A DNA stretch of 64,000 bases. Source: an uncultured Flavobacteriaceae bacterium. Its GTDB lineage: Bacteria > Bacteroidota > Bacteroidia > Flavobacteriales > Flavobacteriaceae. The position numbers and the translations under genes are program-made. Location: NCBI GenBank assembly GCA_947500525.1, contig CANMSH010000003.1:62001-126000 (forward strand), read 5' to 3'. Below are positions 23,563-42,787 of the stretch, piece by piece; positions within the stretch are counted from its first letter, which is position 1; every line of letters begins with the position of its first letter. The notes beneath the pieces are model-generated. The model saw only the letters and a program-made list of their open reading frames with translations. It searched no databases and was not told where the DNA came from.

Positions 23563-26500
23563 TTAAATAAGTTCTTCATCATAATAATGTGTAGCATCTT
23601 CTAATAATATCGACAGCATCTCTTTTTCTTTAACAATTCTTGTATCGTCCCAGTCAAGATACTCAATCATATCATTAATGATTAAATCTTTAAATTTTGA
23701 TACGCTAGCAATGTTAAAATATAAGCGACCAGTTCGGCGCACAAAAAAATCAGCCAAACTATTCGTCATTTCATGATGTACACAATACCATAACTCGGCT
23801 CTAATTAACCTTTCTGTAATTAATTTATTGACGAAAAAATCCGTCTTATTCAAAATAATATCGGCTTGTTTACCGTAAGTCGTAGTTAAATACCAAGCAT
23901 AATATGAATCATCAATACCAATTACCTTTAATTTATTTTCAAGCTCTTTTTGATAAACCCCAACTTCTTTCGTCGTAGACATTGGCTGGGATGTCAACGT
24001 AATTTTTTCGGTATCCGTTTTTGTAAATTTAGATCTGCGTTTAGAGCTCATTGATTTCATAACGACCTCAATCACCCGCTGTGCCATTTTTCGATATCCT
24101 GTTAATTTTCCACCCGCGATAGAAATCAAACCACTATCAGAAACGAAAGTCTCATCTTTGCGCGATAGTTCAGAAGGATCTTTCTTATCTTCATGAATTA
24201 AAGGGCGAAGACCTGCCCAATTCGACTCAACATCATTAATCGTTGCTTTCACCGTTGGGAACGTTTTATTTACGGCATTCAACAAATAATTCACATCATC
24301 TTTAGTAGCCACTACTCTATCGAGATTACCCGTGTAATTGGTGTCTGTTGTACCAACATATGTAACTCTTCCTCTAGGTATGGCGAATATCATACGACCA
24401 TCATCTACATCAAAGTAAACTGATTGTTTTATAGGCAATTTTTCCGCTGGGAAAACAATATGAACGCCTTTTGTAAGATGCAATCTTTTATGATTCATTG
24501 AGGCATCTTTTGTACGTAACAAATCCACCCATGGGCCTGCAGCAGACACAAAGTTTCTTGAGGTAATATTTAATCGTATACCTGTATTATGATCAACACA
24601 ATTAACGCTTTGAATCTTTCGTTCACTATCATAAACGAATTCTTCCATCTCACAATAATTAATGATGGTTGCTCCAAAGTCAGACGCTTTTTTTAAGAGC
24701 TCTATGGTTAAACGAGCGTCATCTGTTCGATATTCGGCATAGTACCCTCCTCCTAATAATGAAGCTTCATCTAACAACGGTTCTTTTAAAATTGTCTCTT
24801 CAGTATCTAACATTTTTCGACGATCATCACCTTCAACATTCGCTAAAATATCGTATACTTTTAAACCAATAGACGTAAGCATTTTACCATAATTACCTCC
24901 TTCTATTAAAGGTAAGAGCATTTTCTCTGGAACCACTAAATGTGGGGCTAATTTATGTACAATGGCTCTTTCGGTTCCTGATTCTTTCACCAAACCAATT
25001 TCCATTTGTTTTAGATAACGCAAACCTCCGTGAATCAGTTTCGTGGATTTATTACTGGTTCCAGAAGCAAAATCGTTCTTTTCTACTAAACATGTTTTTA
25101 AACCACGAGATGCTGCATCTAAAGCAATTCCGGCCCCCGTAACTCCGCCTCCAATAATAATAAGATCGAAAGTAGTTGAGGCCAATTTCTTAAGTTGCTT
25201 TTCCCTATCCAAAATAGAAAAACGTTGTTCTTTTTCATTTTTCTTGGAAGTAGATGTTCTTGTTCTCTCAACTGCTTTTATCCATCCTTTATACTTTTGC
25301 TTTCGAATCTTTCGATCCATTTGAGGTTCAAAGACAGTATCTACATTTCTAATCTCATCAATATCCTCTTTGGTCCAAACATCTGCTTTTATACCTGCCA
25401 ACAAAGCCGCTCCCAAAGCTGTGACTTCAAGCATTTTTGGCCTATCAACGGCTACATTTAGTATATCAGATTGAAATTGCATTAAGTAATTATTTGCAGA
25501 AGCACCTCCATCTACTTTTAGGGTAGTCATTTGCTTACCACTATCTTCTATCATTGCATCTAACACATCTTTTGTTTGATATGCCAACGCCTCTACTGTT
25601 GCTTTAATAATATGTTTCCTACCGCTATCTAAGGTCAAGCCATAAATAGCCCCCTTAGCATTCGCATCCCAATATGGCGCTCCTAATCCAGCAAAAGCTG
25701 GTACTACATATAAATCTTTTAATGGCGGAATTTCGTTACAAATTGCTTCTGTTTCAGATGCCTTCGTTATCATTTTCATTTGATCTCTCAACCATTGAAT
25801 TGAAGCACCTCCAACAAAAACACTACCTTCTAGGGCATATTTTACCTTTTCATCTTCTAAACTACATGTCAAAGTGGTTAACAAACCATTTTTTGAATGT
25901 ACTTGTTTTTTTCCCGTATTTAATAATAAGAAACAACCCGTACCATATGTATTCTTAGCCATCCCAGCTTTATAGCCTCCTTGGCCAAAAAGTGATGCTT
26001 GTTGATCCCCTGCAACTCCGTATATCGGAATTTGTTTTTTTTGATAAGTCACAAAACCAAAGTCAGATGAAGAGTTTTGAACTTGAGGCATCATAGACTT
26101 CGGAATATCCATCACCTCTAACATTTTATCATCCCAGCATAGGTCTTTGATATTATATAACATTGTACGAGACGCATTGGTGTGATCGGTAACATGCTTT
26201 TCACCATTAGAAAACTTGTATATTAACCAACTGTCAATTGTACCGAACATTAAATTCCCTTGATCTGCCTTTTCTCTTGCACCATCTACATTGTCTAGAA
26301 TCCATTTTAGTTTTGTTCCAGAAAAATAAGAGTCAATAACAAGGCCTGTATGTGTTCTCACATAATCTTCTAAGCCTTTTGCTTTTAGTTCGTCACAAAT
26401 TGCCGTAGTTCTTTTATCTAACCAAACAATTGCCCTATGAATCGGTTCACCCGTTTGTTTATCCCAAACTACGGTCGTTTCTCTCTGATTCGTTATTCCA

Positions 26501-26730
26501 ATTGCCGAGACGTCATTAGCAGTAATCTTCGCCTCTTTCATAATAGTTTCAAAGGCTTCCTTTTGGTCATTGAAAATCTCATTCGCATCATGTTCGACCC
26601 AACCAGATTGAGGATAATGTTGCGTCAATTCTTTTTGAGAAACTTTCACAATCTCTCCTTTTACATTAAATAAAATTGCACGCGTACTGGTGGTTCCTTG
26701 ATCAAAGGCGATGATATATTTTCGACTCAT
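23563..26730 (-). CDS. Bifunctional glycerol kinase - glycerol-3-phosphate dehydrogenase fusion
   Basis: 1055 residues in one frame. Residues 1-~490 are a full-length glycerol kinase (IIAFDQGTTSTRAILF, GITNQRETTVVWDKQTG, catalytic Asp242 in GVAGDQQASLFGQ, KVDGGASANNYLMQ, ending KGWIKAVERT). A short Lys/Ser/Glu linker (~491-502) leads to a full-length FAD-dependent GlpD from ~503: FDLIIIGGGVTGAGIALDAA, NKSTKLIHGGLRYLKQ, TYVGTTDTNY, SIAGGKLTGYRKMAQRVIE and a C-terminal cap domain. Both enzymes keep their known motifs, so the chain should convert glycerol plus ATP to dihydroxyacetone phosphate, passing electrons to quinone. It is the last gene of the GH36/SSS operon (24 bp from the symporter gene), which ties it to glycerol released from a galactosyl-glycerol. 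Confidence 0.92.
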   Translation of the reverse strand: MSRKYIIAFDQGTTSTRAILFNVKGEIVKVSQKELTQHYPQSGWVEHDANEIFNDQKEAFETIMKEAKITANDVSAIGITNQRETTVVWDKQTGEPIHRAIVWLDKRTTAICDELKAKGLEDYVRTHTGLVIDSYFSGTKLKWILDNVDGAREKADQGNLMFGTIDSWLIYKFSNGEKHVTDHTNASRTMLYNIKDLCWDDKMLEVMDIPKSMMPQVQNSSSDFGFVTYQKKQIPIYGVAGDQQASLFGQGGYKAGMAKNTYGTGCFLLLNTGKKQVHSKNGLLTTLTCSLEDEKVKYALEGSVFVGGASIQWLRDQMKMITKASETEAICNEIPPLKDLYVVPAFAGLGAPYWDANAKGAIYGLTLDSGRKHIIKATVEALAYQTKDVLDAMIEDSGKQMTTLKVDGGASANNYLMQFQSDILNVAVDRPKMLEVTALGAALLAGIKADVWTKEDIDEIRNVDTVFEPQMDRKIRKQKYKGWIKAVERTRTSTSKKNEKEQRFSILDREKQLKKLASTTFDLIIIGGGVTGAGIALDAASRGLKTCLVEKNDFASGTSNKSTKLIHGGLRYLKQMEIGLVKESGTERAIVHKLAPHLVVPEKMLLPLIEGGNYGKMLTSIGLKVYDILANVEGDDRRKMLDTEETILKEPLLDEASLLGGGYYAEYRTDDARLTIELLKKASDFGATIINYCEMEEFVYDSERKIQSVNCVDHNTGIRLNITSRNFVSAAGPWVDLLRTKDASMNHKRLHLTKGVHIVFPAEKLPIKQSVYFDVDDGRMIFAIPRGRVTYVGTTDTNYTGNLDRVVATKDDVNYLLNAVNKTFPTVKATINDVESNWAGLRPLIHEDKKDPSELSRKDETFVSDSGLISIAGGKLTGYRKMAQRVIEVVMKSMSSKRRSKFTKTDTEKITLTSQPMSTTKEVGVYQKELENKLKVIGIDDSYYAWYLTTTYGKQADIILNKTDFFVNKLITERLIRAELWYCVHHEMTNSLADFFVRRTGRLYFNIASVSKFKDLIINDMIEYLDWDDTRIVKEKEMLSILLEDATHYYDEELI

Positions 26731-26754
26731 AAATGATACTAATACGTTATATGG

Positions 26755-28410
26755 TTAAAAAATAAAATAAGTACTTAATACAAGTATAGTAATGACGATT
26801 CCAATAATTTTGGCATATTTCCAAGGTGTAGTATCTATCTCTTCAGTAACCTCAGGAACATATATATCTTTCTTAGGATATAATTTACCTATGATCAACA
26901 TGATTATAATGTTTACTACAAACAAGATTCCCATGATATGCAAAAAGTGCGGATACGCCTTCGCCTTAATAACCTTTAAGGCTTCAGGATCTGTAATACC
27001 ATTTGCGGCAGCTTCAGTTAAAGCGTTATTTACGGCATTTGGGCCTAAAAGTAATAGACTAATCAAATACATAATAACACCACCAATTAACGCAATTTTT
27101 GCACCTAAAGCAGGAACTCTCTTAGATAAAATTCCGATCACTACAACCGCCAATATTGGCACACTTAAACTACCCAGAGCTTGTTGTATATAGGAGAACA
27201 AACCGTCGGGGGCGTTCGCTATAAAAGGAGCAATGCTCATGGATATAATTGCTAAGAAAAGTCCAAAAATTTTCCCTGCTTTTACCGTTTGCTGTTCACT
27301 GGCATTTTTATTAAAATGTTGCTTGTATAAATCAAAACCAAATAAGGTTGCACTACTATTTAATAAACTATTAAATGAACTCAATACAGCTCCAAATAAA
27401 ACGGCTGCAAAAAATCCAGTAAATTCTGGTCTCAATACTTTACGTACTAAAGCGGGATATGCTTGGTCTGCATTTTCTAAACTTCCGTCAAACAAATGCC
27501 AAGCTATTATTCCCGGTAACACTACGATTACAGGTATTAAAAATTTAACGAAGGCTGCCAGCATCATGCCTTTTTGACCTTCTTTTAGACTCTTTGCTCC
27601 GAACACTCTTTGTAAAATAGATTGGTTGGTACCCCAATAATACATTTGAGCAATCATCATTCCAGTGAATATCGTTCCAAAAGGAATTGAAGAAGTAATA
27701 TCTCCTTTTACATTAAACTTTTCAGGATTACTATCCCAAAGTGTGCTAAAACCTTCGCTGATGCTTCCATCTCCTATCATCATTAGACCAAAAATAGGAA
27801 TCAATAATCCTCCTATTAAAAGACCTATGGCATTGATTAAATCAGAAACTGCCACGGCTTTTAAACCACCAAAAATTGCGTAAACAATACCTATCGCACC
27901 AATACTCCAAACGCATAACCAAATCACTCCCGATTCAGACATACCTAAGAGCTCTGGTAAGTCAAACATTGTGCTAAAGGCTAAAGAACCCGAATAAAGA
28001 ATAGTTGGCAATAATACAACTCCAAAAGCTATTAAAAACAATATAGAAAGTATGGTTTTTGTTTGTTCATCAAATCTCCCTTGAATAAATTCTGGAATTG
28101 TTGTGATACCGGATTTCATATATTTCGGTAATAGCAAAATTGCCGTTAATACCATTGCAATAGCTGCTAGTGTTTCCCAGGCCATTACCAAAACTCCTTC
28201 GGCAAAAGATTGTCCGTTTAAACCTACAATCTGTTCAGCAGAAAGGTTTGTTAAAAGCAAGGAACCAGCAATAGTAATTGCTCCAAGGCTTCTTCCTCCG
28301 AGATAATAACCATCGGCTGTACTTTCATCGGTACTTCTTGTTTTATACCAAGCTACAAAACCCACTAAAAGGGTAAATCCGAAAAAAGAAATGATAGATG
28401 TTGAATTCAT
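26755..28410 (-). CDS. Sodium/solute symporter (SSS/SLC5 family)
   Basis: 551 residues with about 14 hydrophobic helices and SSS motifs: DGYYLGGRSLGAITIAGSLL, NLSAEQIVGLNGQSF, GLKAVAVSDLINAIG and the late helix with SFNSLLNSSATLFGFDLY. It is most like the sugar branch (SglT/YidK). It starts 6 bp after the GH36 gene and precedes glpK-glpD. Since the GH36 has no signal peptide, this permease probably carries the intact glycoside across the inner membrane; myo-inositol, galactose or glycoside substrates are all compatible with the family. Confidence 0.85.
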   Translation of the reverse strand: MNSTSIISFFGFTLLVGFVAWYKTRSTDESTADGYYLGGRSLGAITIAGSLLLTNLSAEQIVGLNGQSFAEGVLVMAWETLAAIAMVLTAILLLPKYMKSGITTIPEFIQGRFDEQTKTILSILFLIAFGVVLLPTILYSGSLAFSTMFDLPELLGMSESGVIWLCVWSIGAIGIVYAIFGGLKAVAVSDLINAIGLLIGGLLIPIFGLMMIGDGSISEGFSTLWDSNPEKFNVKGDITSSIPFGTIFTGMMIAQMYYWGTNQSILQRVFGAKSLKEGQKGMMLAAFVKFLIPVIVVLPGIIAWHLFDGSLENADQAYPALVRKVLRPEFTGFFAAVLFGAVLSSFNSLLNSSATLFGFDLYKQHFNKNASEQQTVKAGKIFGLFLAIISMSIAPFIANAPDGLFSYIQQALGSLSVPILAVVVIGILSKRVPALGAKIALIGGVIMYLISLLLLGPNAVNNALTEAAANGITDPEALKVIKAKAYPHFLHIMGILFVVNIIIMLIIGKLYPKKDIYVPEVTEEIDTTPWKYAKIIGIVITILVLSTYFIF

Positions 28411-28416
28411 AAATTG

Positions 28417-30186
28417 TTAAATTTGAGTTAGTTGTACAATTCCACAAGCAGGCACCTCAATATCAATTAATTCTTTCAGAATTAATTCATTTTGGCTCAC
28501 ACGATTGCCTTTGCAATCATATACTTTGCATTGATATCTACCCATATTTTTAGCCACTTTTATAATCATACTAGTGGCTAATTGAGCATTTAAAATATCA
28601 ATGTTTTTATGTGCTTGTTCCAAATGTACTATATATTCGTCATACAATCCAACTATAAGGCTATCATTTTTAGAGACTTGCTGAATCGGATAATTCGCTA
28701 AGGGTTTGCTCGGAATAAACTGTCCGTTTATAAAGGTATCTTTATGCTCATTCCAATATGATGTATAAAAAGAAACCATTTCTAAATGATCTTTAGGTAA
28801 TTGATGGAGTTTAACAGAAATTTGAGGAACACCAAACATGGTATTCACCATTTGCAGTGCAGCTATTTCCACTTTTTCTTTCATATGCCAGGTAATCATA
28901 TCAGAATGCACCGCAGTTTCACCCGCCAACATCCTAATATCTGTAATTCTAACTCTATTCATCGTGGCATCTCCTGGACAATCAAATGCGCGAAACATAT
29001 TACCATATTTACGCATAGCCGGTCCTGTATATTTTTGCCTGAATTCTATAAAAACATCAGGGTTTATTTCACGTAAAGCATTAATAACATCAGTCATTAA
29101 ACGATCAACAGCTTCGTTAATAGAAGCATAATCTCTACCTTCGATGGCACCAAGAACAGTGTCTGGATACAGTCTAAAATCATCAATAAAGTCTAGTTTG
29201 AATCCATCTAAATCCCATGTTGAAGCGGCTCTTTTATATATCGTTATCAGATATGCCCGTACCTCTGGAAATCTAGGATCAAAAACAGGTGCCCAGCGAT
29301 GATTTTCGGTTAAGAATTTACCTTTAAATCGTTGATATGCTTTTGATTTCTTACCACAAAATGGCACAGAATACCAAAAACCAACTTTCAACCCAATTTC
29401 TTGTATACTACTTATAAACTCTTTAGGATTGGTAAGTCGCTCTGGAAGCCAATCACCCGTATAATCATAACCTCTGTTCGAATCATTAGTTTGCCAACCA
29501 TCATCAATAATGATGGCTTCATAACCCAACTTCTTGGCTAACTTACATTCTTTGATTAGCTCTTTAGCATTTAATTCTTGATGAAATTGATACCAAGTAG
29601 AATATAAAGGAACTTTGGCTATTTCAGGAACGTATGCTGGTTTTAAACTATCAAAAGTTTCCCACCAAACAGAAGTTTCATTTAATGCTGAAGAGAAATG
29701 TTTTTTACCCGTATCAATTCTTAACTGAATTTTAAATTCTTTCAGTTTTAATTTTCTTTCTTTAAAAAGTGTAACATGACAATAAAAACAATTATTCTCT
29801 TCACGAATTCTCGCATTTAATTCTAATTTATTTATCGCATTAGAACAAGCAAATGTCAATACATTGTTATCGTCATGAGAGAAAAGCGAAATGACAGGCG
29901 CATCAATTGAAATTCTAGACTCCATATGTTCTAATTCCCAATCTGCCTGTATACGTTTAGAAAAATCGGTGGTAGGCTTCCACACACCTTTAATATTATG
30001 CGCCGGAATCTTCCACTGCAAGGTAATAGGTTGTACTTCCATATACGCATCGGCAGTTAACCGAAAATCATAAATTTTAATCTCGTCTTCGTCAAGAACC
30101 TTTTTTAAAACGGCATCCATATTGGCTGGCACACCTGTTATTAATATTTCATTCAACTCCTGCACTATTGTAGTATCTATCATCAT
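28417..30186 (-). CDS. Cytoplasmic GH36 alpha-galactosidase
   Basis: 589 residues with no signal peptide. A beta-sandwich occupies residues ~1-190, then a TIM barrel: YEAIIIDDGWQTND, GFWYSVPFCG, nucleophile D332 in GFKLDFIDDF, and the acid/base region at D402/D406 (MFRAFDCPGDATMNRVRI); a C-terminal beta domain follows. The motifs fit GH36/GH-D clan alpha-galactosidases. The start could be either of the two first Met codons. It lies 1 bp after the FG-GAP lipoprotein gene and 6 bp before the symporter. Cytoplasmic location means a small imported substrate. With glycerol kinase/GlpD in the same operon, 2-O-alpha-galactosyl-glycerol (floridoside) or isofloridoside is the leading candidate; raffinose-type sugars are the alternative. 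Confidence 0.85.
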   Translation of the reverse strand: MMIDTTIVQELNEILITGVPANMDAVLKKVLDEDEIKIYDFRLTADAYMEVQPITLQWKIPAHNIKGVWKPTTDFSKRIQADWELEHMESRISIDAPVISLFSHDDNNVLTFACSNAINKLELNARIREENNCFYCHVTLFKERKLKLKEFKIQLRIDTGKKHFSSALNETSVWWETFDSLKPAYVPEIAKVPLYSTWYQFHQELNAKELIKECKLAKKLGYEAIIIDDGWQTNDSNRGYDYTGDWLPERLTNPKEFISSIQEIGLKVGFWYSVPFCGKKSKAYQRFKGKFLTENHRWAPVFDPRFPEVRAYLITIYKRAASTWDLDGFKLDFIDDFRLYPDTVLGAIEGRDYASINEAVDRLMTDVINALREINPDVFIEFRQKYTGPAMRKYGNMFRAFDCPGDATMNRVRITDIRMLAGETAVHSDMITWHMKEKVEIAALQMVNTMFGVPQISVKLHQLPKDHLEMVSFYTSYWNEHKDTFINGQFIPSKPLANYPIQQVSKNDSLIVGLYDEYIVHLEQAHKNIDILNAQLATSMIIKVAKNMGRYQCKVYDCKGNRVSQNELILKELIDIEVPACGIVQLTQI

Positions 30187-30187
30187 C

Positions 30188-33100
30188 TTAGTTTTTATTG
30201 ATGCTAAACATCATTACCGTATCATTATTCTGGCTTACAAGCACTTTTTTTTCATTATACATAGTCGTAATTTCAATTATATGATGTGATTGCCCAGGCA
30301 CATAAAAACCTGATTCTTTACTTGGTATCACCTCAAAACCGCCTTCACTTCCTTTCAAATAAACACCCATGAGGGCATCATATTTTCCGTAGTTTGTTTC
30401 AGCAGTAAAATCGTTACCAACTAGCAACACATCTAAATAACCATCATCATTTATATCTTTTACTAACATATCATTTATTGGAGCAACTTGACACGCATCA
30501 GGCAGTGCAACCACTTTAAAAATTCCATTTCCCATATTTTCAATATAACTGCTTGCAAATGTATCCGCTTTAAGTGTACTTTCCTTTAGGTTCGTTATAT
30601 TTAATAAATCTATAAAATTAACTTTCGAAAAAGATGCGTATGTCAAATATGTATCTTTCAACTTTACTATTTGCTTCATGATATCATCTCGAGTATGTAC
30701 GGGTAATAGCTCGTATCCATTTTTTGTCTTAAAATATTGAGCGAGTACCGGATCTAAGCTTCCATTGTTATCAAAATCTTTAGAATAGACATACACTGGT
30801 TTTTTCTCTTTCGGCAAAACAAAACCATTTAACCCTTGGTTACCTACGATAAAGTCAATATCGCCATCATTATCAAAATCTCCTGCTTCAATAGAATTCC
30901 ACCAACCCGAAACTGCTATGTCTTCACTCTTTCGATTGATCCAACGAGATTTCATTTTCTTTAATTTCCCCCGATTATTTTTATAAATTGTAATTGGCAT
31001 CCATTCACCTACTATTATAAGGTCGTCCCAATCATCACCATCAATGTCTATCCAAAGTGCGTCGGTAATCATACCAATTTCTAATAATTCATCATTTTCA
31101 AGTGCTTTAAACGCACCTGCATTATTTTGTAATAATTGACTTTTGGGTGCTGTTGGGTATTTTCCTTTTACTATTCTGCTTCCAACGAAAAAATCGATAT
31201 CACCATCTTTATCAAAATCACTTGGTTTTATACAGGCAGCCGTTTCAAACACTTTAGGTAGCGCGTTTACGGCTAAGGAAAAACTACCAGATCCATTATT
31301 TAAATAGAGTTGATCTTGATAAACTGATGCCCCTAATTTAAATTCTGTACCGCCGTTTGCAACATACAAATCCAAGTCCTTATCATTATCAATATCGATG
31401 AAGACAGCAGCTGTATTTTCAGGGGCAGCTTCTAATTTTTGTCGAATCTCATAGATTCCATCTTTGTTTTGACCTAAAATTAAGCCTGGTGCATCTTTGC
31501 TTCCGCCAAAAAACAGTTCATCCCCTGGTTTGCCATCAACGTTCGCCGCCGTGATACATGGACCAAATTTATTATACTGACGCATCAGTAAATGTTGAAA
31601 TACATAATCATGCCCTCCGTTCTCTTGATGTTTTATCGAAATAGTAGCACTATCTTGAGTAAAGATTTTTGTAGGTAAAATTTCAGAATAACGTTTTAAA
31701 TGCTGTATTGATTCACTATCTACAATTAGCACCTGATTTTTTGCTACCTCATAAAGTTTAGAAATACTGGTATCGGGCCAAGCGATTTCTATCGAATCTA
31801 CTCGCTCAGATTTCAATCCAAAATGTAAAATAGGTTCAACAGATGATAAATATCCTCGTACTACAGATTGATATTGCTGCTGCTGTTCTCCATCTTCCCA
31901 AATAGTGACTTTTGCACCAATGGCCTTTACGTTTTTTCGCGCTCCTTTTAATTTAATTCTTAAATAGTTCGCGTTACTCCTATGCCTTGTTTGATTCTCT
32001 ATTATTGAACCTCTGTCATTTATATTATTTACAATAATATCTAAATCGCCATCATTATCTAAATCTGCATAAACAGCACCATTTGAAAATGACTGATTTT
32101 CAGATATCCAGGTATTCGATACATTCTCAAAATGGGAACGCTCAGTATTTTCATAAAAAAAGTTATTCAACTTAACTCCTTTAACGTTTTGAAGATTTTT
32201 CTTCACGGCTGTATTACGCGTCTCGTCAGTGCCAAAAATACTGCTATTGTTCGAATAGCTTACAAAATCTAAATCCGTAATATCCTTTACATACCCATTT
32301 GTTATATAAATATCTTTATCTCCATCATTGTCGAAATCCGCCATCAAAGGAGCCCAACTCCAATCGGTACTGGCGATGCCAGACATATAACTCACCTCAC
32401 TGGTTTTTAAAGGTTTCGCATCGATAAAACCATTATTTAGTTGAAGTGTATTGCGAATATATTGCGATGCATAATTATTCCTTTGCGACAACAAATATTT
32501 GTCATAATTTGTGGTACCTAACATCGATTTTTGGCGTGTATAATCTTGAGGTAGCATGTCTAAAACTAATACATCAGGTAGGGCATCATTATTTATATCG
32601 GCAACATCCACACCCATTGCATTAAATGTTTGATGAGGCATCCATTGCTGACTCATTTCTATAAAACCAAGATGTCTTTTTAGCACACTATCAACCCCCT
32701 GATTTATGTAAAGAAGATCATCAGTGATAAAATCATTTGATATATATACATCCGGTAAACCATCATCATTAAAGTCGTTTAATGCTATTCCTAATCCAAA
32801 TCCACGATGCGTAATACCGAGATCCTGGGATACATCCGTGAATATAGGGTGGTCAATGCCTTCAACGGTATCATTGCGCAATAGCGCATCTTGAATATGA
32901 ATTGGCTGATACTTTTTCGGAATCAGGGCATTCTTAGACCGTGTGCTTTCACCATTATGAACAATATATGCATCTAAATCTCCGTCAAGATCATAATCAA
33001 AAAAAAGTGTTTGCTGAGCGTATAAGCCATCATCTAAATTGTAGGAAGCCGCTTGCTCTTCGAATTGTGGAATACCATCATTATTTATCCCTTTATTTAT

Positions 33101-33532
33101 GAATAGCAAATTATTACAGTCATTGTTGCAATTAAAGCCTCCAACACTTAAGTAAATGTCTTCCAATTGATCATTATTTATATCTACTACCGACACTCCC
33201 GTCACCCATGTATTTGTTTCAAAACTAGATTTTTTACTAATATCTTCGAAGGTAAAATTCCCTCTATTTAGGTAAATTTTTGATGAAACTTGATTACCTG
33301 TAAAAACAATATCTTGCAAACCGTCATTATTGAAATCACCGATACCAACACCTCCCCCATTATAGGAATATTGAAATTCTATGACATTAATAGAATCATT
33401 TTCGATTATAGTATTGGAAAATGTGACTCCCGAATCTCTTGAATCAACATATCTAAAAATCGCGCTTTCATTTTTAGTGCAAGAAGCTAGAAAAAGAAGA
33501 CATATAATATATAGGGTACATTGATTTGACAT
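30188..33532 (-). CDS. FG-GAP/VCBS-repeat lipoprotein with ASPIC/UnbV domain
   Basis: 1114 residues. Lipoprotein signal with lipobox LLFLASC. Many FG-GAP-type Ca2+-binding repeats (GIGDFNNDGLQDIVFTGN, DYDLDGDLDAYIVHNG, ADFDNDGDKDIYITNG, DFDNDGDIDFIVGNQ) form two propeller-like blocks. Between them at ~residues 530-610 is an ASPIC/UnbV segment (GAKVTIWEDGEQQQQYQSVV, SIEIAWPDTSISKLYEV). Such proteins often accompany SusC/SusD pairs in Bacteroidota and are expected on the cell surface; their exact role (ligand capture or scaffolding) is not settled. It lies after the SusD terminator and 1 bp before GH36. Confidence 0.8.
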   Translation of the reverse strand: MSNQCTLYIICLLFLASCTKNESAIFRYVDSRDSGVTFSNTIIENDSINVIEFQYSYNGGGVGIGDFNNDGLQDIVFTGNQVSSKIYLNRGNFTFEDISKKSSFETNTWVTGVSVVDINNDQLEDIYLSVGGFNCNNDCNNLLFINKGINNDGIPQFEEQAASYNLDDGLYAQQTLFFDYDLDGDLDAYIVHNGESTRSKNALIPKKYQPIHIQDALLRNDTVEGIDHPIFTDVSQDLGITHRGFGLGIALNDFNDDGLPDVYISNDFITDDLLYINQGVDSVLKRHLGFIEMSQQWMPHQTFNAMGVDVADINNDALPDVLVLDMLPQDYTRQKSMLGTTNYDKYLLSQRNNYASQYIRNTLQLNNGFIDAKPLKTSEVSYMSGIASTDWSWAPLMADFDNDGDKDIYITNGYVKDITDLDFVSYSNNSSIFGTDETRNTAVKKNLQNVKGVKLNNFFYENTERSHFENVSNTWISENQSFSNGAVYADLDNDGDLDIIVNNINDRGSIIENQTRHRSNANYLRIKLKGARKNVKAIGAKVTIWEDGEQQQQYQSVVRGYLSSVEPILHFGLKSERVDSIEIAWPDTSISKLYEVAKNQVLIVDSESIQHLKRYSEILPTKIFTQDSATISIKHQENGGHDYVFQHLLMRQYNKFGPCITAANVDGKPGDELFFGGSKDAPGLILGQNKDGIYEIRQKLEAAPENTAAVFIDIDNDKDLDLYVANGGTEFKLGASVYQDQLYLNNGSGSFSLAVNALPKVFETAACIKPSDFDKDGDIDFFVGSRIVKGKYPTAPKSQLLQNNAGAFKALENDELLEIGMITDALWIDIDGDDWDDLIIVGEWMPITIYKNNRGKLKKMKSRWINRKSEDIAVSGWWNSIEAGDFDNDGDIDFIVGNQGLNGFVLPKEKKPVYVYSKDFDNNGSLDPVLAQYFKTKNGYELLPVHTRDDIMKQIVKLKDTYLTYASFSKVNFIDLLNITNLKESTLKADTFASSYIENMGNGIFKVVALPDACQVAPINDMLVKDINDDGYLDVLLVGNDFTAETNYGKYDALMGVYLKGSEGGFEVIPSKESGFYVPGQSHHIIEITTMYNEKKVLVSQNNDTVMMFSINKN

Positions 33533-33562
33533 GAAATAATCATAAATAATTTAAAAACGATG

Positions 33563-33595
33563 AAAAAAACCAAGTGGCCTTTTACAACCACTTGG
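33563..33595 (-). terminator. Intrinsic terminator inside the operon, after SusD
   Basis: Stem CCAAGTGG/CCACTTGG (33588-33595 and 33570-33577), 10-nt loop, followed in the minus direction by seven T. It lies between susD and the FG-GAP gene and should make susC/susD more abundant than the downstream enzymes by partial read-through, a common arrangement in Sus-type operons. Confidence 0.8.
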
Positions 33596-33633
33596 CTCCT
33601 AATTTAAACATATGAAAACAAAGTTAACTCAAA

Positions 33634-35190
33634 TTAATAACCAGAATTTTGCTGCAAATTAGAATTTGCATCAATTTCTGGTTGTGGTATCCAAACCAAT
33701 TCATGTTTACCTGATACAAAAACGCCTCCATTACTCAATGACTTAGGATGTGTTCCATGTAAAGAATTTGCTCCCAAATAATCATCCGCTAATCCCCATC
33801 TCACCAAGTCAAAAAATCGATGTGATTCTCCAACTAATTCTAAGGTACGTTCTTCAATGATTGCGGTTCTCATTTGATCTTGAGACAAGCCACTGTATGT
33901 GCTTATTCCAGCTCGAGTTCTTACTAAATTTATATTACCTTCGGCTTCTCCAGTCTTACCTTGTTCGTTCAACGCTTCGGCCAACATCAACAACACATCA
34001 GAATATCTAATTAATCTCCAGTTATTACCTGTATCAATACCACTTGCCGGGACATCAGCTCTCACACCATTATCCATTCCCGAATATTTCTTGGTAAAAA
34101 TAGGCTCTACTCCTTCTGCTGCTGCAACACTTATCTCTCCGGCAAAATCTGTTAAGAAAGGAACTCCGCCGTATCCAGTAGCTCCAGGATAATCATAAGC
34201 AATACTCTCATTACGTCTTACAACATCTCCATTAGCTTCAAAAAGATCTTTTACCCATGGGTTCATATAGTGCCCTTGATCTAAAGAATGCTCTGGTGGT
34301 GAATAATCAATTACATAATTTGCTAAAGTTCCAGAACCAGAAACATCCACACCCCATACCCAGTTTTCCGGATCGCCCTTATATTGAATTTCGAAAACTG
34401 ATTCTACATTATTTTCATTATTGATTCCAAAATTATCACCGTATTGTGCTGCGGGAAGTAATGAGTAGCCCATAGTTGTCACTGCTTTGAAATCTGTCTC
34501 GGCGTCTGCCCAATTTTTCAAATACAAATGAGTTTTACCTCTAAACGCTGTCGCAGAACCTTTTGTAGGCCTTCCTAAATCACCACTACCCCAAGAAGAT
34601 GGCAGTCTATTTGCTGCTTCAGTAAAATCTGCAATTGATTGCGCCCACAACTCTGTTTGCGTCGCCGCGGATGGAAATAAATTATCAGGGGCTGATTCTA
34701 AAACCAACGGCGTATTACCGTATAGAGCCGCCAAATACCAATAGGCAAAACCTCTACAGAAATAAGCCTGGCCTAAAAATCCATCCCGCTCAGTTTGGCT
34801 TGCAACATTTGTTTCATCTACATTTTCTAAAATCAAATTGGCCCTGAGAATTACTTTATATAATTCTTGATAAGGTTCTAAGGCCCATCTAGCGGTTCCA
34901 GGCCCTCCCTGAAAAGTAGACATGGCCGTATTTGTATCGAATGGGCGAATATTAAACTCATCTGATCGTAATATGGCACCAGTGTGTACAATTCGTCCCC
35001 AAAAAAATGTATTAGCGATTGGATGAAACATACCATTCACCGCTAATTTAGCATCATCGGCATCTTGCCAAAATGATTCTGAACCAATCGAATTTGGATT
35101 TACCTGGTTCAGAAAACTCTCACTACAACTTACTGTAAAAAGCAATAAGATTGCAACTAAATAGTTTGTAATTCTTAAATTAGTTTTCAT
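33634..35190 (-). CDS. SusD/RagB-family outer-membrane lipoprotein (galactosyl-glycerol locus)
   Basis: Starting at ATG 35190 gives MKTNLRITNYLVAILLLFTV followed by the lipobox VSCSESF; a longer in-frame start at 35271 would overlap the SusC gene and bury the signal peptide, so I reject it. About 518 residues with SusD features: SESFLNQVNPNSI near the N-terminus, TPR-like helices (YFCRGFAYWYLAALYGNTPLV), and a C-terminal segment RYSDVLLMLAEALNEQGKT ... EERTLELVGESHRFFDLVRWG. It binds substrate at the surface as lid of the SusC channel, whose gene ends 22 bp upstream. Ligand inferred from the operon. Confidence 0.9.
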   Translation of the reverse strand: MKTNLRITNYLVAILLLFTVSCSESFLNQVNPNSIGSESFWQDADDAKLAVNGMFHPIANTFFWGRIVHTGAILRSDEFNIRPFDTNTAMSTFQGGPGTARWALEPYQELYKVILRANLILENVDETNVASQTERDGFLGQAYFCRGFAYWYLAALYGNTPLVLESAPDNLFPSAATQTELWAQSIADFTEAANRLPSSWGSGDLGRPTKGSATAFRGKTHLYLKNWADAETDFKAVTTMGYSLLPAAQYGDNFGINNENNVESVFEIQYKGDPENWVWGVDVSGSGTLANYVIDYSPPEHSLDQGHYMNPWVKDLFEANGDVVRRNESIAYDYPGATGYGGVPFLTDFAGEISVAAAEGVEPIFTKKYSGMDNGVRADVPASGIDTGNNWRLIRYSDVLLMLAEALNEQGKTGEAEGNINLVRTRAGISTYSGLSQDQMRTAIIEERTLELVGESHRFFDLVRWGLADDYLGANSLHGTHPKSLSNGGVFVSGKHELVWIPQPEIDANSNLQQNSGY

Positions 35191-35212
35191 AATCTTTATT
35201 AAATTTATTTTA

Positions 35213-38200
35213 TTAAAAGCCCAATTGTAATCCCACAGTGAATGTTCTGGCATTAGGATATGCCCTTGCATCTATACCCCGACCTAATATTGGATTTAAG
35301 CCGCGAGGTGAACGTCCTCCTGATGTGGAAGCTACATCAGGGTCATACCCTGTATAATCAGTTATTACAAAGAGGTTCTGAGCGTTTAAATATACTCTAG
35401 CTGAACCAATCCAATCTACAGCTAATTTCTCATTAAATGTATAACCAATTTCAACAGTTTTTAATCTTAAATACGAACCGTCCTCAACAAAATAGGTCGA
35501 TGCTGCTCTATTACCGCCTGCGTCACTCGTAGTTGCTCTTGGCACATCCGTAATCGTATTCGTTGGTGTCCAAGCCCTTAATACATCTACTAATTTATTA
35601 TCATCAGACCAGAACGTATTAAAAAATTTGTTCTGATTCCAAATTTCATTACCCTGTACCCCTTGGAAAAATAAACTAAAATCTAAGTTTTTATAATTAC
35701 CAGCGAAGTTAATACCGTAGGTAAAATCGGGAGTTGGATCTCCAATAACAGATTGATCGTCTACAGTTACCATTCCATCTCCATTTATATCAGCTCTTTG
35801 GAAATCTCCAGGTTGCACTAAGGATCTTCTTACAGGGTCATTGGCAGTATTTGGATCATTATCGATCGATGCTTGATCAGGATATACTCCTAAAATTGTG
35901 TATCCAAAAAATACCCCAAGCGGTTGCCCTTCAATAAAACGGTTTACCGTTCTACCATCTTCATCTACTCCGGGACCAATAATAGGATTTGGCAATGAGG
36001 TCAACTCATTCTTTACTGTAGCCAAATTGAATCCTACACTATAATTAAAGTTTTCACTTGGAGAGTCGGTATAGTTCAAACCTAATTCAAACCCTCTGTT
36101 GTTTATGTTACCTGCATTTTGAATTACTGGTAAACTTGTACCACTAGAAGAAGGTATGCTTACGGCCACTAAAACATCTTCAACATCTTTGTTAAAATAG
36201 TCAGCAGTCAATGACAATTTATTATTTAATAGGGTCGCGTCAATACCTACGTTTAGGGTTTTAGAAACTTCCCATTTAATATCTTCATCTACTAACTGTG
36301 TTAAGGCATATCCGAAAGCAAAATCTTGTTGCTCACCAAAGGCAGTATTCGATGTTAGCCCAAATACCGATTGATAGGCATAGTCAGCAATATTTTGAGA
36401 TCCTAATTCACCATAACCAGCTCGTACTTTTAAAGTGTTTACGACTCCATCTTCATTCCAAAAGTCCTCATTACTCACCCTCCAACCTACTGAAAACGAA
36501 GGAAAATATCCTACACGATTTCCATCTCTAAATTTAGAAGAAGCATCTCTACGCATAGATGCCGTTAACAAGTACTTATCATCATATTTATAATTGATAT
36601 TTCCAAAATAAGATAGCAATCCACTTACTGTGCGTTGACCTCCAGTTGCCACTACATTAGAAGCATCAGCGGCCCCAACATTTCTGATATCATTCGAAGG
36701 CAATCCGTTAACCGTCGTAGATAAAGCATTACCATCGATATCTTGTCTTGAAACACCTATAAGAGCTTGTATATTACTCTTTCCAAACGACTTTTTATAT
36801 GTCAAAGTTCCATCCATGATGGTTGAAAGCGTTTCTGAACGTGTTTCTGTTAAATCGTTTAATTCATTTAAATTATTGAGTGCATCAGAATTACTCATGA
36901 AATATGTCGGGCGAAATAGTGTATAATATTGATTGACATAATCGACCCCTACATTTACTTTCCCTGTGAGCCCTTCAACAATTTCATAGCTTGCGCTTAA
37001 ACTTCCCAATACGTTTCTTGACGTTAATAGGTTATCTTCTAAAGTTGCCAATGCGAATTTGTTAATCCCTCCAAAATTGTGAATACTAAATTCGGGTGCT
37101 TCAAAACCACCCTCATTTTCTGGTACGTTTCGTCTCAAAATAGGAGCTGTAGAACCTTCAAAACCAAACCAATCATTTGTTTGCAACTTGGTTTGTGCCA
37201 ACGATAACGATTCTTCAATCTTTACTTTGCCCACGTTGAATTTACTATTCAAACGCACATTAATTTTTTCGAATCCAGATCCGACAAGAATACCATCTTG
37301 TTTAAAGTAATTCGAGGAGAATAAATAAGAAGAACTCTCTCCACCACCTGAAACTGAAAATCCATAATCTTCTACAGAACCATTATTTAAAGAAAGGTCT
37401 TGCCAATCCGTACTAACACCTGTACTAGGAAATACGAATCCTGTACCATCATTTTGTTCTAGCTGATTTCTATATTGTTCGAATTGTGGTCCGTTCAAAT
37501 AATCTAGGAGTCTGCTTGGCGTATCTACTCCTGCTCTTATATCTAGTGTCACTTTTGGAGACGTATCTGTGGTACCTCTATCTGTTGTAACAATTACTAC
37601 TCCATTTGCTGCTCTGGAACCATAGATTGCGGCCGAAGCTGCGTCTTTAAGAACTTGAATATTTTTAAAATCTTTCGAATTCAAATAATACAAATCGTTT
37701 ACAATCATTCCATCGACTACGTATAAGGGAAATGAGTTTGTGAGTGAACTAATTCCTCTAATGAATACATTTGCTGGACCTCCGGGTTGCCCACCAAAAC
37801 TTTCAACCTGCACACCGGTAATTTTACCTTGTAAAGCAATTGTGGGGTTACTTGCAACAACTTGCTTTATGGCTGCTCCTTTTATTGATGATACCGCTCC
37901 AGTAATATCTCGTTTATTTTGTGAACCATAACCTACCACTACCACCTCATCTAAAGCCTGTGAATCACCATCTAAGGTAACATTGATAGTCGTTTGACCA
38001 TTTAAAGGTACTTCCTTTGTGATATAGCCAACAAAACTAAAGACTAAAGTGGCATTCGCATCCACGTTATTCAAGACATAATTACCATCAAAATCGGTAC
38101 TTGTACCGTTATCTGTTCCTTTTACAACTACATTTACCCCTGGTAAAGGGCCACTCACTTCTGATACTGTACCAGAAACGGTTACCGTTTGGGCAGAAAT

Positions 38201-38260
38201 ACTGTTACTAACCAGTATTATTGCAAAAACGATAAGTTGTTTACATACTTTTTTTAGCAT
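35213..38260 (-). CDS. SusC/RagA-family TonB-dependent transporter (galactosyl-glycerol locus)
   Basis: 1015 residues. Signal peptide (MLKKVCKQLIVFAIILVSNS), then a CarboxypepD_reg-like domain (VTVSGTVSEVSGPLPGVNVV), a TonB-box region (EVVVVGYGSQNKRDITGAVS), a plug with the conserved YVVDGMIVND and GSRAANGVVIVTT, and a barrel to the C-terminal Phe (TFVGLQLGF-type end, here TFTVGLQLGF). It imports the locus substrate across the outer membrane with the SusD lid. First gene of the operon, with a good promoter at 38350-38380. Confidence 0.92.
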   Translation of the reverse strand: MLKKVCKQLIVFAIILVSNSISAQTVTVSGTVSEVSGPLPGVNVVVKGTDNGTSTDFDGNYVLNNVDANATLVFSFVGYITKEVPLNGQTTINVTLDGDSQALDEVVVVGYGSQNKRDITGAVSSIKGAAIKQVVASNPTIALQGKITGVQVESFGGQPGGPANVFIRGISSLTNSFPLYVVDGMIVNDLYYLNSKDFKNIQVLKDAASAAIYGSRAANGVVIVTTDRGTTDTSPKVTLDIRAGVDTPSRLLDYLNGPQFEQYRNQLEQNDGTGFVFPSTGVSTDWQDLSLNNGSVEDYGFSVSGGGESSSYLFSSNYFKQDGILVGSGFEKINVRLNSKFNVGKVKIEESLSLAQTKLQTNDWFGFEGSTAPILRRNVPENEGGFEAPEFSIHNFGGINKFALATLEDNLLTSRNVLGSLSASYEIVEGLTGKVNVGVDYVNQYYTLFRPTYFMSNSDALNNLNELNDLTETRSETLSTIMDGTLTYKKSFGKSNIQALIGVSRQDIDGNALSTTVNGLPSNDIRNVGAADASNVVATGGQRTVSGLLSYFGNINYKYDDKYLLTASMRRDASSKFRDGNRVGYFPSFSVGWRVSNEDFWNEDGVVNTLKVRAGYGELGSQNIADYAYQSVFGLTSNTAFGEQQDFAFGYALTQLVDEDIKWEVSKTLNVGIDATLLNNKLSLTADYFNKDVEDVLVAVSIPSSSGTSLPVIQNAGNINNRGFELGLNYTDSPSENFNYSVGFNLATVKNELTSLPNPIIGPGVDEDGRTVNRFIEGQPLGVFFGYTILGVYPDQASIDNDPNTANDPVRRSLVQPGDFQRADINGDGMVTVDDQSVIGDPTPDFTYGINFAGNYKNLDFSLFFQGVQGNEIWNQNKFFNTFWSDDNKLVDVLRAWTPTNTITDVPRATTSDAGGNRAASTYFVEDGSYLRLKTVEIGYTFNEKLAVDWIGSARVYLNAQNLFVITDYTGYDPDVASTSGGRSPRGLNPILGRGIDARAYPNARTFTVGLQLGF

Positions 38261-38320
38261 AAGATAAATAATTAAGTTGATTGTTTTAAATAGTTAGTGT
38301 TAGTTTAAAAAAGCTTAAAA

Positions 38321-38346
38321 TGTATGCTATGATACACTATGCTACA
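38321..38346 (-). promoter_or_regulatory. Candidate operator at the susC transcription start
   Basis: The sequence TGTATGCTATGATACA (38321-38336) has inverted TGTAT/ATACA arms, and TATGCTA repeats directly at 38323 and 38338 (15-bp period). It begins just downstream of the -7 element and would cover +1 of the susC transcript, an ideal repressor position. The adjacent GntR-type regulator is the obvious candidate binder. Confidence 0.4.
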
Positions 38347-38349
38347 AAG

Positions 38350-38380
38350 CAAAATTAAAACAAAAATTGAGATATCCAAA
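38350..38380 (-). promoter_or_regulatory. Promoter of the galactosyl-glycerol susC operon
   Basis: On the minus strand TTTG (38380-38377), exactly 19 nt, then TAATTTTG (38357-38350): a full match to the Bacteroidota TTTG-N19-TAnnTTTG promoter. The leader before the ATG at 38260 is about 80-85 nt. The remaining part of the 38261-38504 gap holds nothing else recognised. Confidence 0.7.
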
Positions 38381-38504
38381 AAATAAATGTAAAAATCACA
38401 CTTAATGAATAATATTGTATATAAAAAAATGTATTTCTTTCATTTTTAAGAAATGTAACTTAATATTTGTCGAGATCTTTTAAACTAATGCCCTAATCAA
38501 AAGA

Positions 38505-39515
38505 TTAAATAGAGTTTCTTTTAATTAAATTGGAAGGAACAATGCGCTGCGTAGTATTACCTTCTTTAATATGAACTGCAGCAGACAATGCCATATCTTT
38601 AAAATCAATTGAGATTGTTGTGATTCCTCCAAAAATGAATTCTTTAACAACATTGTCATTGTGGGATAGTATTCCAACATCTTTACCGACCTTATATTCG
38701 GCATTTCGACAGTCTTTTAAAAACTCCCATAAGAAGGTATCGCTAATAAAAAAATAAGAGTGGTTCTTTTTTAGCATTCCCTTTTTGTATTTTTTTTCAA
38801 CAACCCCGGTTACATCATGATTATCAATAAATTTATGAAAGGCATTCAGGATTCCAATAGGATAATCAGCATCATCTCTAAAGAATAAAATGAACTTTTT
38901 ATAACGACTAACTTCAGGTAATAATTCGACTAATTTTTCGTACGTTTTATTTTCAAACTCTTGCGATATGTACGAATAGTCTTTTGGCATTTGAATAAAT
39001 CGATCAATAATTAGCAATTTTTGAGGAACGATTCTTTTTAACAAGGGGATGACCTTTTGATCTTGAACAGGTGCAATGACGTATTTACCATACTTACCTC
39101 GAATGTTGGTTACAATGGTCTCAAAAATAGTATAATTGTTATGATGAAAATAAACGTCTATTTGAAATCGCTTACCTAGTTCTTTTCTAAACGTATTGTA
39201 AAATTCTTTTTGGAAACTTTGAAATGCGAAAAGAAGTAAGGCAACCTTCATGGTCACTTTGGTTTCTTGACTAACAATAAAGTAACCTTTTAATTTTTTA
39301 GACTCTACAAGCCCTCTTTCCTTCAACGCTTCGTACGCTCGCACAATGGTCTTACGTGCAAACCCCAATTCTTCGACCATTACATTAATCGAAGGCAATT
39401 TATCTCCTGTTTTCAAAAAGCCTTCATCTATAGATTCTAGCACTCCATTAACTAATTGTTCGTGCTTGGACAAGGCATTATATTCGGTAAGTTCTTTTAT
39501 TTTTTCTATTAACAA
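38505..39515 (-). CDS. GntR-family regulator with sugar-binding-type C-terminal domain
   Basis: 336 residues. A winged helix of GntR type (~15-80: LVNGVLESIDEGFLKTGDKL, SINVMVEELGFARKTIVRAY) is followed by a periplasmic-binding/LacI-like effector domain (~88-336). The start is TTG at 39515: an in-frame TAA lies two codons upstream (39519-39521), and the next Met is inside the DNA-binding domain, so the TTG is forced. It is encoded next to the galactosyl-glycerol operon in the same direction, and probably senses that substrate or a product such as galactose. It is transcribed separately from the susC operon, 244 bp upstream. Confidence 0.8.
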   Translation of the reverse strand: MLIEKIKELTEYNALSKHEQLVNGVLESIDEGFLKTGDKLPSINVMVEELGFARKTIVRAYEALKERGLVESKKLKGYFIVSQETKVTMKVALLLFAFQSFQKEFYNTFRKELGKRFQIDVYFHHNNYTIFETIVTNIRGKYGKYVIAPVQDQKVIPLLKRIVPQKLLIIDRFIQMPKDYSYISQEFENKTYEKLVELLPEVSRYKKFILFFRDDADYPIGILNAFHKFIDNHDVTGVVEKKYKKGMLKKNHSYFFISDTFLWEFLKDCRNAEYKVGKDVGILSHNDNVVKEFIFGGITTISIDFKDMALSAAVHIKEGNTTQRIVPSNLIKRNSI

Positions 39516-40501: not shown

Positions 40502-40520
40502 TTTATATATTTTATTTTAA

Positions 40521-41561: not shown

Positions 41562-41595
41562 TCTTAAATATTTAAATTAGTTCTTAAATTTTTGA

Positions 41596-41617
41596 TTTAG
41601 TTAATCGATTAACCAAA
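41596..41617. promoter_or_regulatory. LacI-type operator A (kdgK side)
   Basis: A 22-bp near-palindrome with perfect core GTTAATCGATTAAC (41600-41613) and a central CG, as expected for LacI-family proteins; one mismatched pair in the outer arms. It lies 35 bp upstream of the kdgK start and shares the TTAATCG half-site with operator B, centre to centre 78 bp. Confidence 0.65.
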
Positions 41618-41646
41618 TTCGCTAAAAATAAATCAAAACGCTATAT

Positions 41647-41677
41647 TTTGATTCTAAAAGTTAAAACTATACCTTTG
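41647..41677 (+). promoter_or_regulatory. Promoter of the LacI-type regulator gene
   Basis: TTTG (41647-41650), 19 nt, then TACCTTTG (41670-41677) fits the Bacteroidota consensus exactly. The -7 element overlaps operator B, so the gene is probably autoregulated. The implied leader is only about 23 nt. Confidence 0.7.
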
Positions 41678-41695
41678 CTTAATCGTTTAAGCAAA
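41674..41695. promoter_or_regulatory. LacI-type operator B (autoregulatory)
   Basis: A 22-bp near-palindrome whose inner 20 bases are TTGCTTAATCGTTTAAGCAA, with a central CG and one mismatch pair (T/T next to the centre). It covers the end of the -7 element and the expected start of transcription of the LacI-type gene. Confidence 0.7.
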
Positions 41696-41706
41696 TATAT
41701 AAAAAA

Positions 41707-42744: not shown

Positions 42745-42755
42745 GAAAGGTCTTT
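42729..42755. terminator. Terminator between convergent LacI-type and SDR genes
   Basis: An imperfect hairpin (ACCTCTCTTA against TAAGAAAGGT) overlaps the stop codon of the LacI-type gene. It has A-rich sequence on the left and TCTTTTT on the right, so it could work for both strands. Confidence 0.5.
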
Positions 42756-42787
42756 TTGTTCTAAACTAAATTATTCCTACTATCTAT

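Follow-up and report, generated by a model that had tools for sequence, protein, structure and literature searches.

Abstracts of the literature describe floridoside (2-O-α-D-galactosyl-glycerol) as a major product of photosynthesis and a major osmolyte in red algae. Operons for the use of α-galactosides, raf and mel, contain an α-galactosidase, a dedicated transporter and a regulator, together with sucrose or glucose genes. Polysaccharide utilization loci (PULs) of the SusC/SusD type assemble in one locus a SusC/SusD pair, a surface lipoprotein, a glycoside hydrolase, a transporter and a dedicated regulator. In this study we analysed a window of 64,000 nt (the whole stretch of DNA, positions 62,001 to 126,000 of contig CANMSH010000003.1 of an uncultured Flavobacteriaceae bacterium), in which seven genes on the minus strand at 23563-39515 resemble both types of system. 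A sequence-only reading had proposed that these genes serve the use of floridoside.

As in the raf and mel operons, an α-galactosidase is accompanied by a dedicated transporter and a regulator, whereas here glycerol kinase and dehydrogenase replace the sucrose or glucose genes and uptake is TonB-dependent. All elements of a PUL listed above are also present. Unlike in PULs, none of the seven genes codes for a secreted depolymerase, the predicted substrate is a small heteroside, the pathway for the aglycone (GlpK-GlpD) lies within the operon and the regulator is of the GntR/LacI type. We consider it likely that the locus is dedicated to an α-galactosylglycerol, most probably floridoside and/or isofloridoside.

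A bacterial pathway for floridoside catabolism was not found in the literature at the level of titles and abstract openings, with subscription journals mostly outside the scope. The same was true for the literature on digalactosylglycerol, where the matches listed (15 of 50, titles and abstract openings) contained no bacterial floridoside pathway. In the main text of a transcriptome study of Zobellia galactanivorans (PMC5613140), a term search gave neither floridoside nor GH36.

The locus is associated with glycerol and galactose genes

The genes that the sequence-only reading had named were all located in the order given, and the open reading frames (ORFs), Pfam and NCBIfam agreed with its family assignments (Table 1). 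Between the regulator gene and SusC there are 244 nt; from SusC onward the intergenic gaps are 22, 101, 1, 6 and 24 nt, consistent with a single transcript from SusC to GlpK-GlpD. With adjacent SusC and SusD homologues and a carbohydrate-active enzyme (the GH36-like protein) in the same operon at gaps of 1-101 nt, the locus qualifies as a PUL. It does not qualify as a polysaccharide PUL, because none of the seven genes codes for a secreted glycosidase or depolymerase; the earlier statement that an extracellular glycosidase is absent thus holds for these genes.

In a family search covering 397 genomes, GH36 matches were obtained in 63 genomes. Twenty-five places, including the window, showed at least 57% identity, 12 showed 41-50%, and a weak tail followed. 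Looking for the same gene order in other flavobacteria from red algae had been suggested before, and within the family the order was indeed found: of the 24 regions that surround the remaining orthologues of at least 57% identity, 16 keep GntR-SusC-SusD-(FG-GAP)-GH36. As these 16 regions represent 16 genus codes, the arrangement is not due to chance. In the closest named relative (L068; L and G numbers denote loci and genomes) all seven genes follow one another as in the window, at 80-96% identity. The GH36 search gave no match in two other species of the genus to which the window belongs.

Counts for named relatives rest on the best 80 of 490 relatives, among which L086 and L087 come from one carrier genome and L133 and L143 from one metagenome-assembled genome (MAG). 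In the fetched stretches of these 80, glpK/glpD was present in 33, galK/galT/galE in 20 and both kinds of gene in 12. By our rough estimate, with a genome of 4 Mb, chance alone would place a given single-copy gene in a stretch of 20 kb about 0.5% of the time. The glycerol genes are placed differently from locus to locus: GH36-SSS-GlpK-GlpD in L073, GH36-GlpKD-SSS in L103, GlpD-GH36-SSS-GlpK in L137 and GlpD-GH36-galK-GlpK in L144 (SSS, sodium:solute symporter). On a quick tree of the GH36-like proteins, which counts changes and not gains, the state changed 13 times for glp, 10 times for gal and 8 times for lacZ. α-Glucosylglycerol was set aside as a substrate, as the galK/galT/galE genes of the relatives point to galactose.

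These gene counts also bear on the idea that the operon primarily takes up glycerol and that the galactosidase is an accessory, which we regard as extremely unlikely. It would agree with the fused GlpK-GlpD being the sole strong GlpK or GlpD match in the window's genome, which is 90% complete. To our knowledge, however, neither a SusC/SusD pair nor a vSGLT-type symporter would be expected for glycerol. Moreover, the 69 relatives with at least 50% identity retain the symporter in 63, SusD in 53 and SusC in 49 cases, against only 30 for GlpD and 26 for GlpK, and homologues of GlpK and GlpD also occur in two genus mates that lack a GH36 orthologue.

A predicted operator is shared with distant glycerol genes

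Upstream of SusC a repeat, TAGCATAG-WS-TATCATAG, was found to be conserved; in the window it lies approx. 67 nt ahead of the SusC ATG. Sites with at least 16 of 23 matches to the window site occurred before SusC in 51 of 60 regions, in comparison to 22 of 1200 letter shuffles; the 60 regions hold some genomes twice (e.g. L052, L117) and contain 24 distinct sites. What we take to be the -7 element of the Bacteroidetes promoter consensus, TAnnTTTG, preceded the operator at a distance of no more than 16 nt in 40 of the 51 regions, where control windows gave an expectation of 0.61. Since this element directly precedes the operator in these 40 regions, the operator would cover the expected transcription start, which is the position of a repressor site. 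Palindromes common to more than six of the SusC upstream regions were not found, and a palindromic operator was rejected, as the repeat is direct. An operator before the GntR gene was also rejected as a general feature, being detected in only 1 of 58 regions.

When 20 whole genomes were searched with a strict pattern, 21 sites were obtained in 15 genomes, compared with one site for the reversed pattern. Five of the 21 sites were located outside the locus, and four of these directly preceded glpK (G236, G001) or glpD (G341, G086). The fifth (L186, G236:C1:4888500-4895500, 27.8 bits) stands before a gene that by eye is TetR-like.

With a weight matrix, the operator was detected before an unlinked glpK or glpD in 8 (G001, G236, G388, G377, G211, G018, G086, G341) of 15 genomes that contain the locus without linked glycerol genes; three of the 15 share one genus code, three of the eight belong to one genus, and in G050 the locus runs into the end of its contig. 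In Zobellia it is an unlinked glpK-glpD that stands behind the operator. L213 (G334) was left out because its glycerol genes are linked. As a control we used genomes without a GH36 orthologue. Here one of 20 regions had the operator in a first set, made up of starts of glpK (17), fused genes (2) and glpD (1); none of 20 had it in a second set, taken from glpD. The case regions were 5-7 kb and the control regions 1.2 kb long, but all eight sites lay no further than about 60 nt from the start of the aligned gene. Fisher's test gave p=0.0019 for 8/15 against 1/20, and p=4e-5 against the pooled 1/40. The presence of the operator before unlinked glycerol genes connects regulation of the galactosidase locus with the breakdown of glycerol, independently of gene neighbourhood.

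From its position, the operator is presumably bound by the GntR-type protein encoded beside it. A profile of this regulator was made from 18 homologues (15 with at least 53% identity to the window's protein, two with 33-34%); GntR helix-turn-helix (HTH) structures matched its N-terminus and the LacI-type structures 2qu7, 3k4h, 3tb6 and 3bil matched parts of residues 167-337, so that a GntR HTH is combined with a LacI-like sensor, as had been read from the sequence. This two-part architecture is shared with AraR, and the profile matches the structures of both the DNA-binding part and the sensor of the arabinose repressor. In contrast to AraR, the operator predicted here consists of two direct repeats with a 10-bp period and precedes galactoside and glycerol genes.

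The GH36-like enzyme and the symporter

The structure of the GH36-like enzyme was modelled with AlphaFold2 from 25 orthologous sequences (pLDDT 82.7). In a fold search the top PDB matches were of the GH36 type (E 1e-23), which places the model in the GH36 fold. The first rank was taken by the GH36 galactosaminidase FpGalNase (9awt; TMq 0.66, 12% identity), followed by SpAga, AgaA and others and then by GH31 α-galactosidases; α-galactosidases dominated the next 30 ranks. D332 corresponds in a local alignment to the KWD Asp of 3mi6, equivalent to D478 of AgaA, in the GH36 nucleophile motif (the AgaA mutants D478A and D548N are named in PDB titles), and D228-D229 align with the DDGW motif. We propose D429, invariant in the 25 sequences, as a candidate acid/base residue on the motif alone; the profile comparison with canonical GH36 covered 153 columns, and owing to this limited overlap the acid/base residue could not be aligned. 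Compared with the α-galactosidases of GH36 (AgaA 4fnr, 3mi6, and 9awt FpGalNase), the overall fold (TMq about 0.53-0.66) and the DDGW and KxD motifs agree, whereas the identity is only 12-14%, the protein has 589 residues instead of approx. 730, and GH36N and GH36C give no Pfam match. The abstract of PMC8509150 describes a GH36 α-galactosidase that, working in reverse, joins galactose and glycerol to isofloridoside, which indicates that glycerol is acceptable as an aglycone in the GH36 fold.

A signal peptide could not be recognised by eye in the window protein or in its 24 aligned orthologues, in agreement with the earlier description of the enzyme. It is this branch without signal peptide that is tied to glycerol and galactose genes. 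Most of the distant GH36-like relatives inspected begin with a signal peptide, and members at 40-50% identity adjoin GH97 or sulfatase genes, again mostly with signal peptides (both by eye). L056, L058, L059, L060, L142 and L145 are such distant relatives, located beside GH97 and sulfatase genes, and this branch is probably a separate system for sulfated galactan.

A general α-galactoside locus, for melibiose, raffinose or galactan side chains and with the glycerol genes as mere passengers, would be compatible with the substrates that GH36 enzymes accept (PDB titles with melibiose, raffinose and stachyose). In PMC12313589, galactomannan is also given as the target of GH36 PULs from other strains. 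We find this interpretation very unlikely for the window, because the glycerol genes accompany the locus at varying positions and belong to its predicted regulon, none of the seven genes codes for a secreted glycosidase, and the loci with GH97 and sulfatase form the separate branch just described. Raffinose and melibiose were set aside as substrates on account of the glycerol genes in the predicted regulon.

The symporter passed both TIGR00813 (306 bits) and NF007790 (727 bits, cut-off 401), and matched vSGLT, the sodium/galactose symporter of Vibrio (2xq2), with E=4e-61. The galactose ligands of vSGLT are presumably Gln, Glu, Asn, Lys, Gln, Ser and Tyr. At these places the first five are kept, whereas the Ser and Tyr are changed here, which might fit a larger substrate.

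Carriers of the locus and red algae

Twenty-one of the loci are from 20 MAGs whose names have the format of a survey of Weihai seaweeds, from which we took their origin. Decoded with the sample letters of that survey (PMC10233909; H and R, Gelidium and Grateloupia, have opposite meanings in its figure legend and its methods, but both are red algae), 17 of the 20 MAGs bear codes of red algae, two of Ulva and one of Saccharina, and none of seawater or sediment. Compared with all 2584 survey genomes, of which 1148 are from red algae, the excess had p=0.0002, with background counts that are confounded by isolate genomes and by species possibly outside the searched collection. A further carrier, Maribacter algarum 4-528 (L096), was isolated from the red alga Gelidium according to the available part of PMC12313589.

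Assignment of the substrate

An α-galactoside of glycerol that is taken up intact and split inside the cell is well supported as the substrate class, because Leloir and glycerol genes occur in related loci and the operator of the locus precedes unlinked glpK/glpD. The floridoside proposal of the sequence-only reading thus stands as regards the class; floridoside as the exact substrate is likely but unproven, and isofloridoside fits equally well.

Several results weigh against this assignment. The GH36 family membership that the sequence-only reading had assumed barely passes in Pfam, with 27.2 bits for PF02065 (Melibiase) at a gathering cut-off of 27, and the sequence similarity is marginal also by profile comparison; the assignment was later backed by the fold. 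An operator before SusC is missing in L047 and in eight Saprospiraceae regions (L123, L124, L129, L137, L138, L141, L143, L144), with L129 having a site before GntR instead. Before the unlinked glycerol genes it was not found in 7 of the 15 genomes (G026, G102, G120, G396, G050, G215, G350). Among the controls, G075 has no GH36 orthologue and still shows the operator before glpK (L223, G075:C12, 24.6 bits), through either loss of the locus or a different role of the regulator. Since glpK and glpD are separate in five genomes (G341, G086, G211, G215, G350), each of these contributed both genes and each control only one, and the two genes were therefore also tested separately: glpK alone gave a weak difference (5/14 against 1/19, p=0.06), and glpD alone gave p=0.008 with few genomes (3/6 against 0/20). 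The excess of red algae is weaker when the 1801 seaweed genomes alone serve as background (p=0.03), and weaker still within Saprospiraceae (p=0.09; 9 of 11 against 74 of 129 MAGs listed as unclassified Saprospiraceae in the survey table). Neither glycerol nor galactose genes were present in 39 of the 80 stretches, several of which end at a contig end. Finally, LacZ (GH2), which an α-galactosylglycerol would not need, was found inside or beside the locus in 11 of the 80, and in five of these (L123, L132, L138, L140, L146) a LacZ without signal peptide is part of the gene run.

The LacZ in the gene run of these five relatives makes digalactosylglycerol a real rival. The head group of the thylakoid galactolipid digalactosyldiacylglycerol (DGDG) is α-Gal-1,6-β-Gal-glycerol; from its deacylated form the α-galactose would be cut off by the GH36-like enzyme and the β-galactose by one of LacZ type, leaving glycerol for GlpK/GlpD. 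Four of the five loci belong to Saprospiraceae, and L138 has GH36, SSS, galK, GlpD and LacZ in a single run. In L071, L073, L074 and L075 a LacZ with signal peptide is divergent from GntR, and the eight state changes of lacZ on the GH36 tree point in the same direction. Against this, LacZ is restricted to the 11 stretches mentioned, and in three of them (L140, L142, L145) it stands beside members of the distant branch. In the window's genome there is just one strong LacZ-type GH2; it starts with a signal peptide and is encoded about 80 kb from the locus, next to a sulfatase-like gene. This incomplete genome also yielded six GH2-barrel matches of lower strength, and no match to GH42, GH35 or GH1. 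Three other carriers contain weaker GH2 matches only (best E 1e-8 in G138, 4e-9 in G086 and 3e-29 in G350, the last a frame of 631 aa), and they lack GH35 and GH1; GH42 is absent from G086 and G350 and weak in G138. In the available part of PMC12313589, β-galactosidase is reported for only one of six strains, which is not the carrier Maribacter algarum 4-528. We therefore consider digalactosylglycerol, the main rival, unlikely for the window, and possibly true for some Saprospiraceae. Floridoside or isofloridoside is favoured for the window because the only strong LacZ-type enzyme is secreted and because 17 of the 20 survey-type MAGs carry red-alga codes.

Genes for galactose use were found elsewhere in the window's genome. 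A galK-galT pair is located in a cluster at C3:273.6-277.7 kb, together with a paralogous GntR-type regulator (31%) and an ORF that by eye is mutarotase-like. Before this gal operon and before the LacZ gene no operator was detected at 10 bits. The gal operon (L198, G000:C3:272500-279500) starts with the 31% paralogue of the locus regulator, and the same was observed in L201 and L202.

Proposed pathway

As predicted from the sequences, SusC/SusD and the FG-GAP lipoprotein would move the intact heteroside across the outer membrane, and the vSGLT-type symporter would carry it with sodium across the inner membrane. In the cytoplasm the GH36-like enzyme would split it into galactose and glycerol. 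The fused GlpK-GlpD would convert glycerol via glycerol-3-phosphate to dihydroxyacetone phosphate, and galactose would be passed to the Leloir pathway, whose galK-galT genes lie outside the locus in the same genome. Bound to the operator at the transcription start, the GntR/LacI-type protein would repress the SusC promoter until binding of the heteroside, or of one of its products, releases it. Repressor and operator would thereby tie selfish SusCD uptake, an intracellular GH36-like floridosidase and glycerol catabolism into a dedicated floridoside/isofloridoside regulon, shared by many flavobacterial genera and, without the operator, by Saprospiraceae; we find this plausible and slightly favour it.

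On the question of who consumes floridoside and how, the locus offers specific genes together with an operator and a predicted regulon, all of which can be tested in cultured carriers (Zobellia, with Z. uliginosa, Aquimarina, with A. litoralis, and Maribacter). It points to SusCD systems that serve small osmolytes instead of polysaccharides, and it singles out a branch of GH36-like proteins, bordering on GH36, for which a new specificity is predicted. If the proposal is true, floridoside would be one of the main forms in which red algae and their epiphytes trade carbon.

Features of the locus and its surroundings

Table 1. Positions of the genes and predicted control elements in the window.
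Feature	Position	Strand	Evidence
GntR-type HTH + LacI/periplasmic-binding-like sensor regulator, AraR-like architecture, 336 aa	38505..39515	-	PF00392 9e-10
Putative promoter elements, Bacteroidetes-type, TTTG-N19-TAATTTTG, before SusC	38350..38380	-	position and TAnnTTTG statistics
Predicted operator GTAGCATAGTGTATCATAG, two TA[G/T]CATAG repeats, 10-bp period	38327..38345	-	conservation across relatives
SusC/RagA TonB-dependent outer-membrane transporter	35213..38260	-	TIGR04056 828.6 bits, cut-off 368
SusD/RagB surface lipoprotein	33634..35190	-	PF07980 2.6e-35
FG-GAP/ASPIC (UnbV) lipoprotein, 1114 aa	30188..33532	-	PF13517 3.3e-57, PF07593 9.3e-19
GH36-like α-galactosidase, 589 aa, predicted cytoplasmic	28417..30186	-	PF02065, fold match, D332 alignment
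Sodium:solute symporter (SSS), vSGLT/PRK10484 type, inner membrane	26755..28410	-	NF007790, 2xq2 match
Glycerol kinase part, residues 1-495 of fused GlpK-GlpD (ORF 23563-26730)	25246..26730	-	NF000756, TIGR01311
GlpD-like FAD-dependent glycerol-3-phosphate dehydrogenase part, residues ~518-1055	23563..25179	-	PF01266 6e-53, PF16901 5e-16

The start of SusD was set by its lipoprotein signal, and the listed ORF begins further upstream. The FG-GAP/ASPIC lipoprotein has the lipobox LASC in its translation and is a probable surface binding partner.

The glycerol kinase and GlpD seen by the sequence-only reading are present, with the refinement that they form a single open frame of 1055 aa. The kinase part exceeded the equivalog cut-offs of NF000756 (759 bits, cut-off 498) and TIGR01311 (697.6, cut-off 590.35). 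The GlpD part passed Pfam DAO and DAO_C and remained below both equivalog cut-offs (NF008899, 315 against 360; NF033461, 467 against 840), so its glycerol-3-phosphate dehydrogenase activity is predicted only in the sense that it would work like one. The one-frame fusion without stops was found in at least 15 of the 397 genomes, including one where the end of the contig truncates it, and in a few further genomes (e.g. G018) the GlpK and GlpD parts lie in frames of more than 1080 aa. Since 11 of the 15 listed genomes have no GH36 orthologue, the fusion was rejected as a hallmark of the locus and appears to be a general flavobacterial variant. It could channel glycerol-3-phosphate to the membrane dehydrogenase. 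No report of a GlpK-GlpD fusion was found in the literature at the level of titles and abstracts.

Additional genes recur in the related loci. A LacA/Maa-type sugar O-acetyltransferase was observed in 14 of the 80, for example between GH36 and the symporter in L033 (10923-11483), comparable to lac operons; it is possible that it detoxifies surplus galactoside. Vanadium-haloperoxidase-like lipoproteins were found in 13 of the 80 stretches. The one at L080:16640-17965 matched 4cit with E 4e-184, and the other 12 (L076, L077, L082, L086, L096, L097, L101, L120, L132, L137, L146, L147) are 28-67% identical to it; their recurrence suggests a recurrent link of galactosylglycerol with halogen chemistry. 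Some Aquimarina loci (L106:13595-14380, L107, L125) contain a NagD-like phosphatase of the haloacid dehalogenase (HAD) type.

The locus is followed downstream by a gene on the opposite strand (20801-23506) for a protein tagged for the type IX secretion system (T9SS). Upstream, at 39833-45849, the translations were recognised by eye as a KDPG (2-keto-3-deoxy-6-phosphogluconate)-type aldolase, a sugar kinase, a short-chain dehydrogenase/reductase (SDR), a major facilitator superfamily (MFS) transporter and LacI and GntR regulators, likely a locus for 2-keto-3-deoxygluconate (KDG) or alginate monomers.

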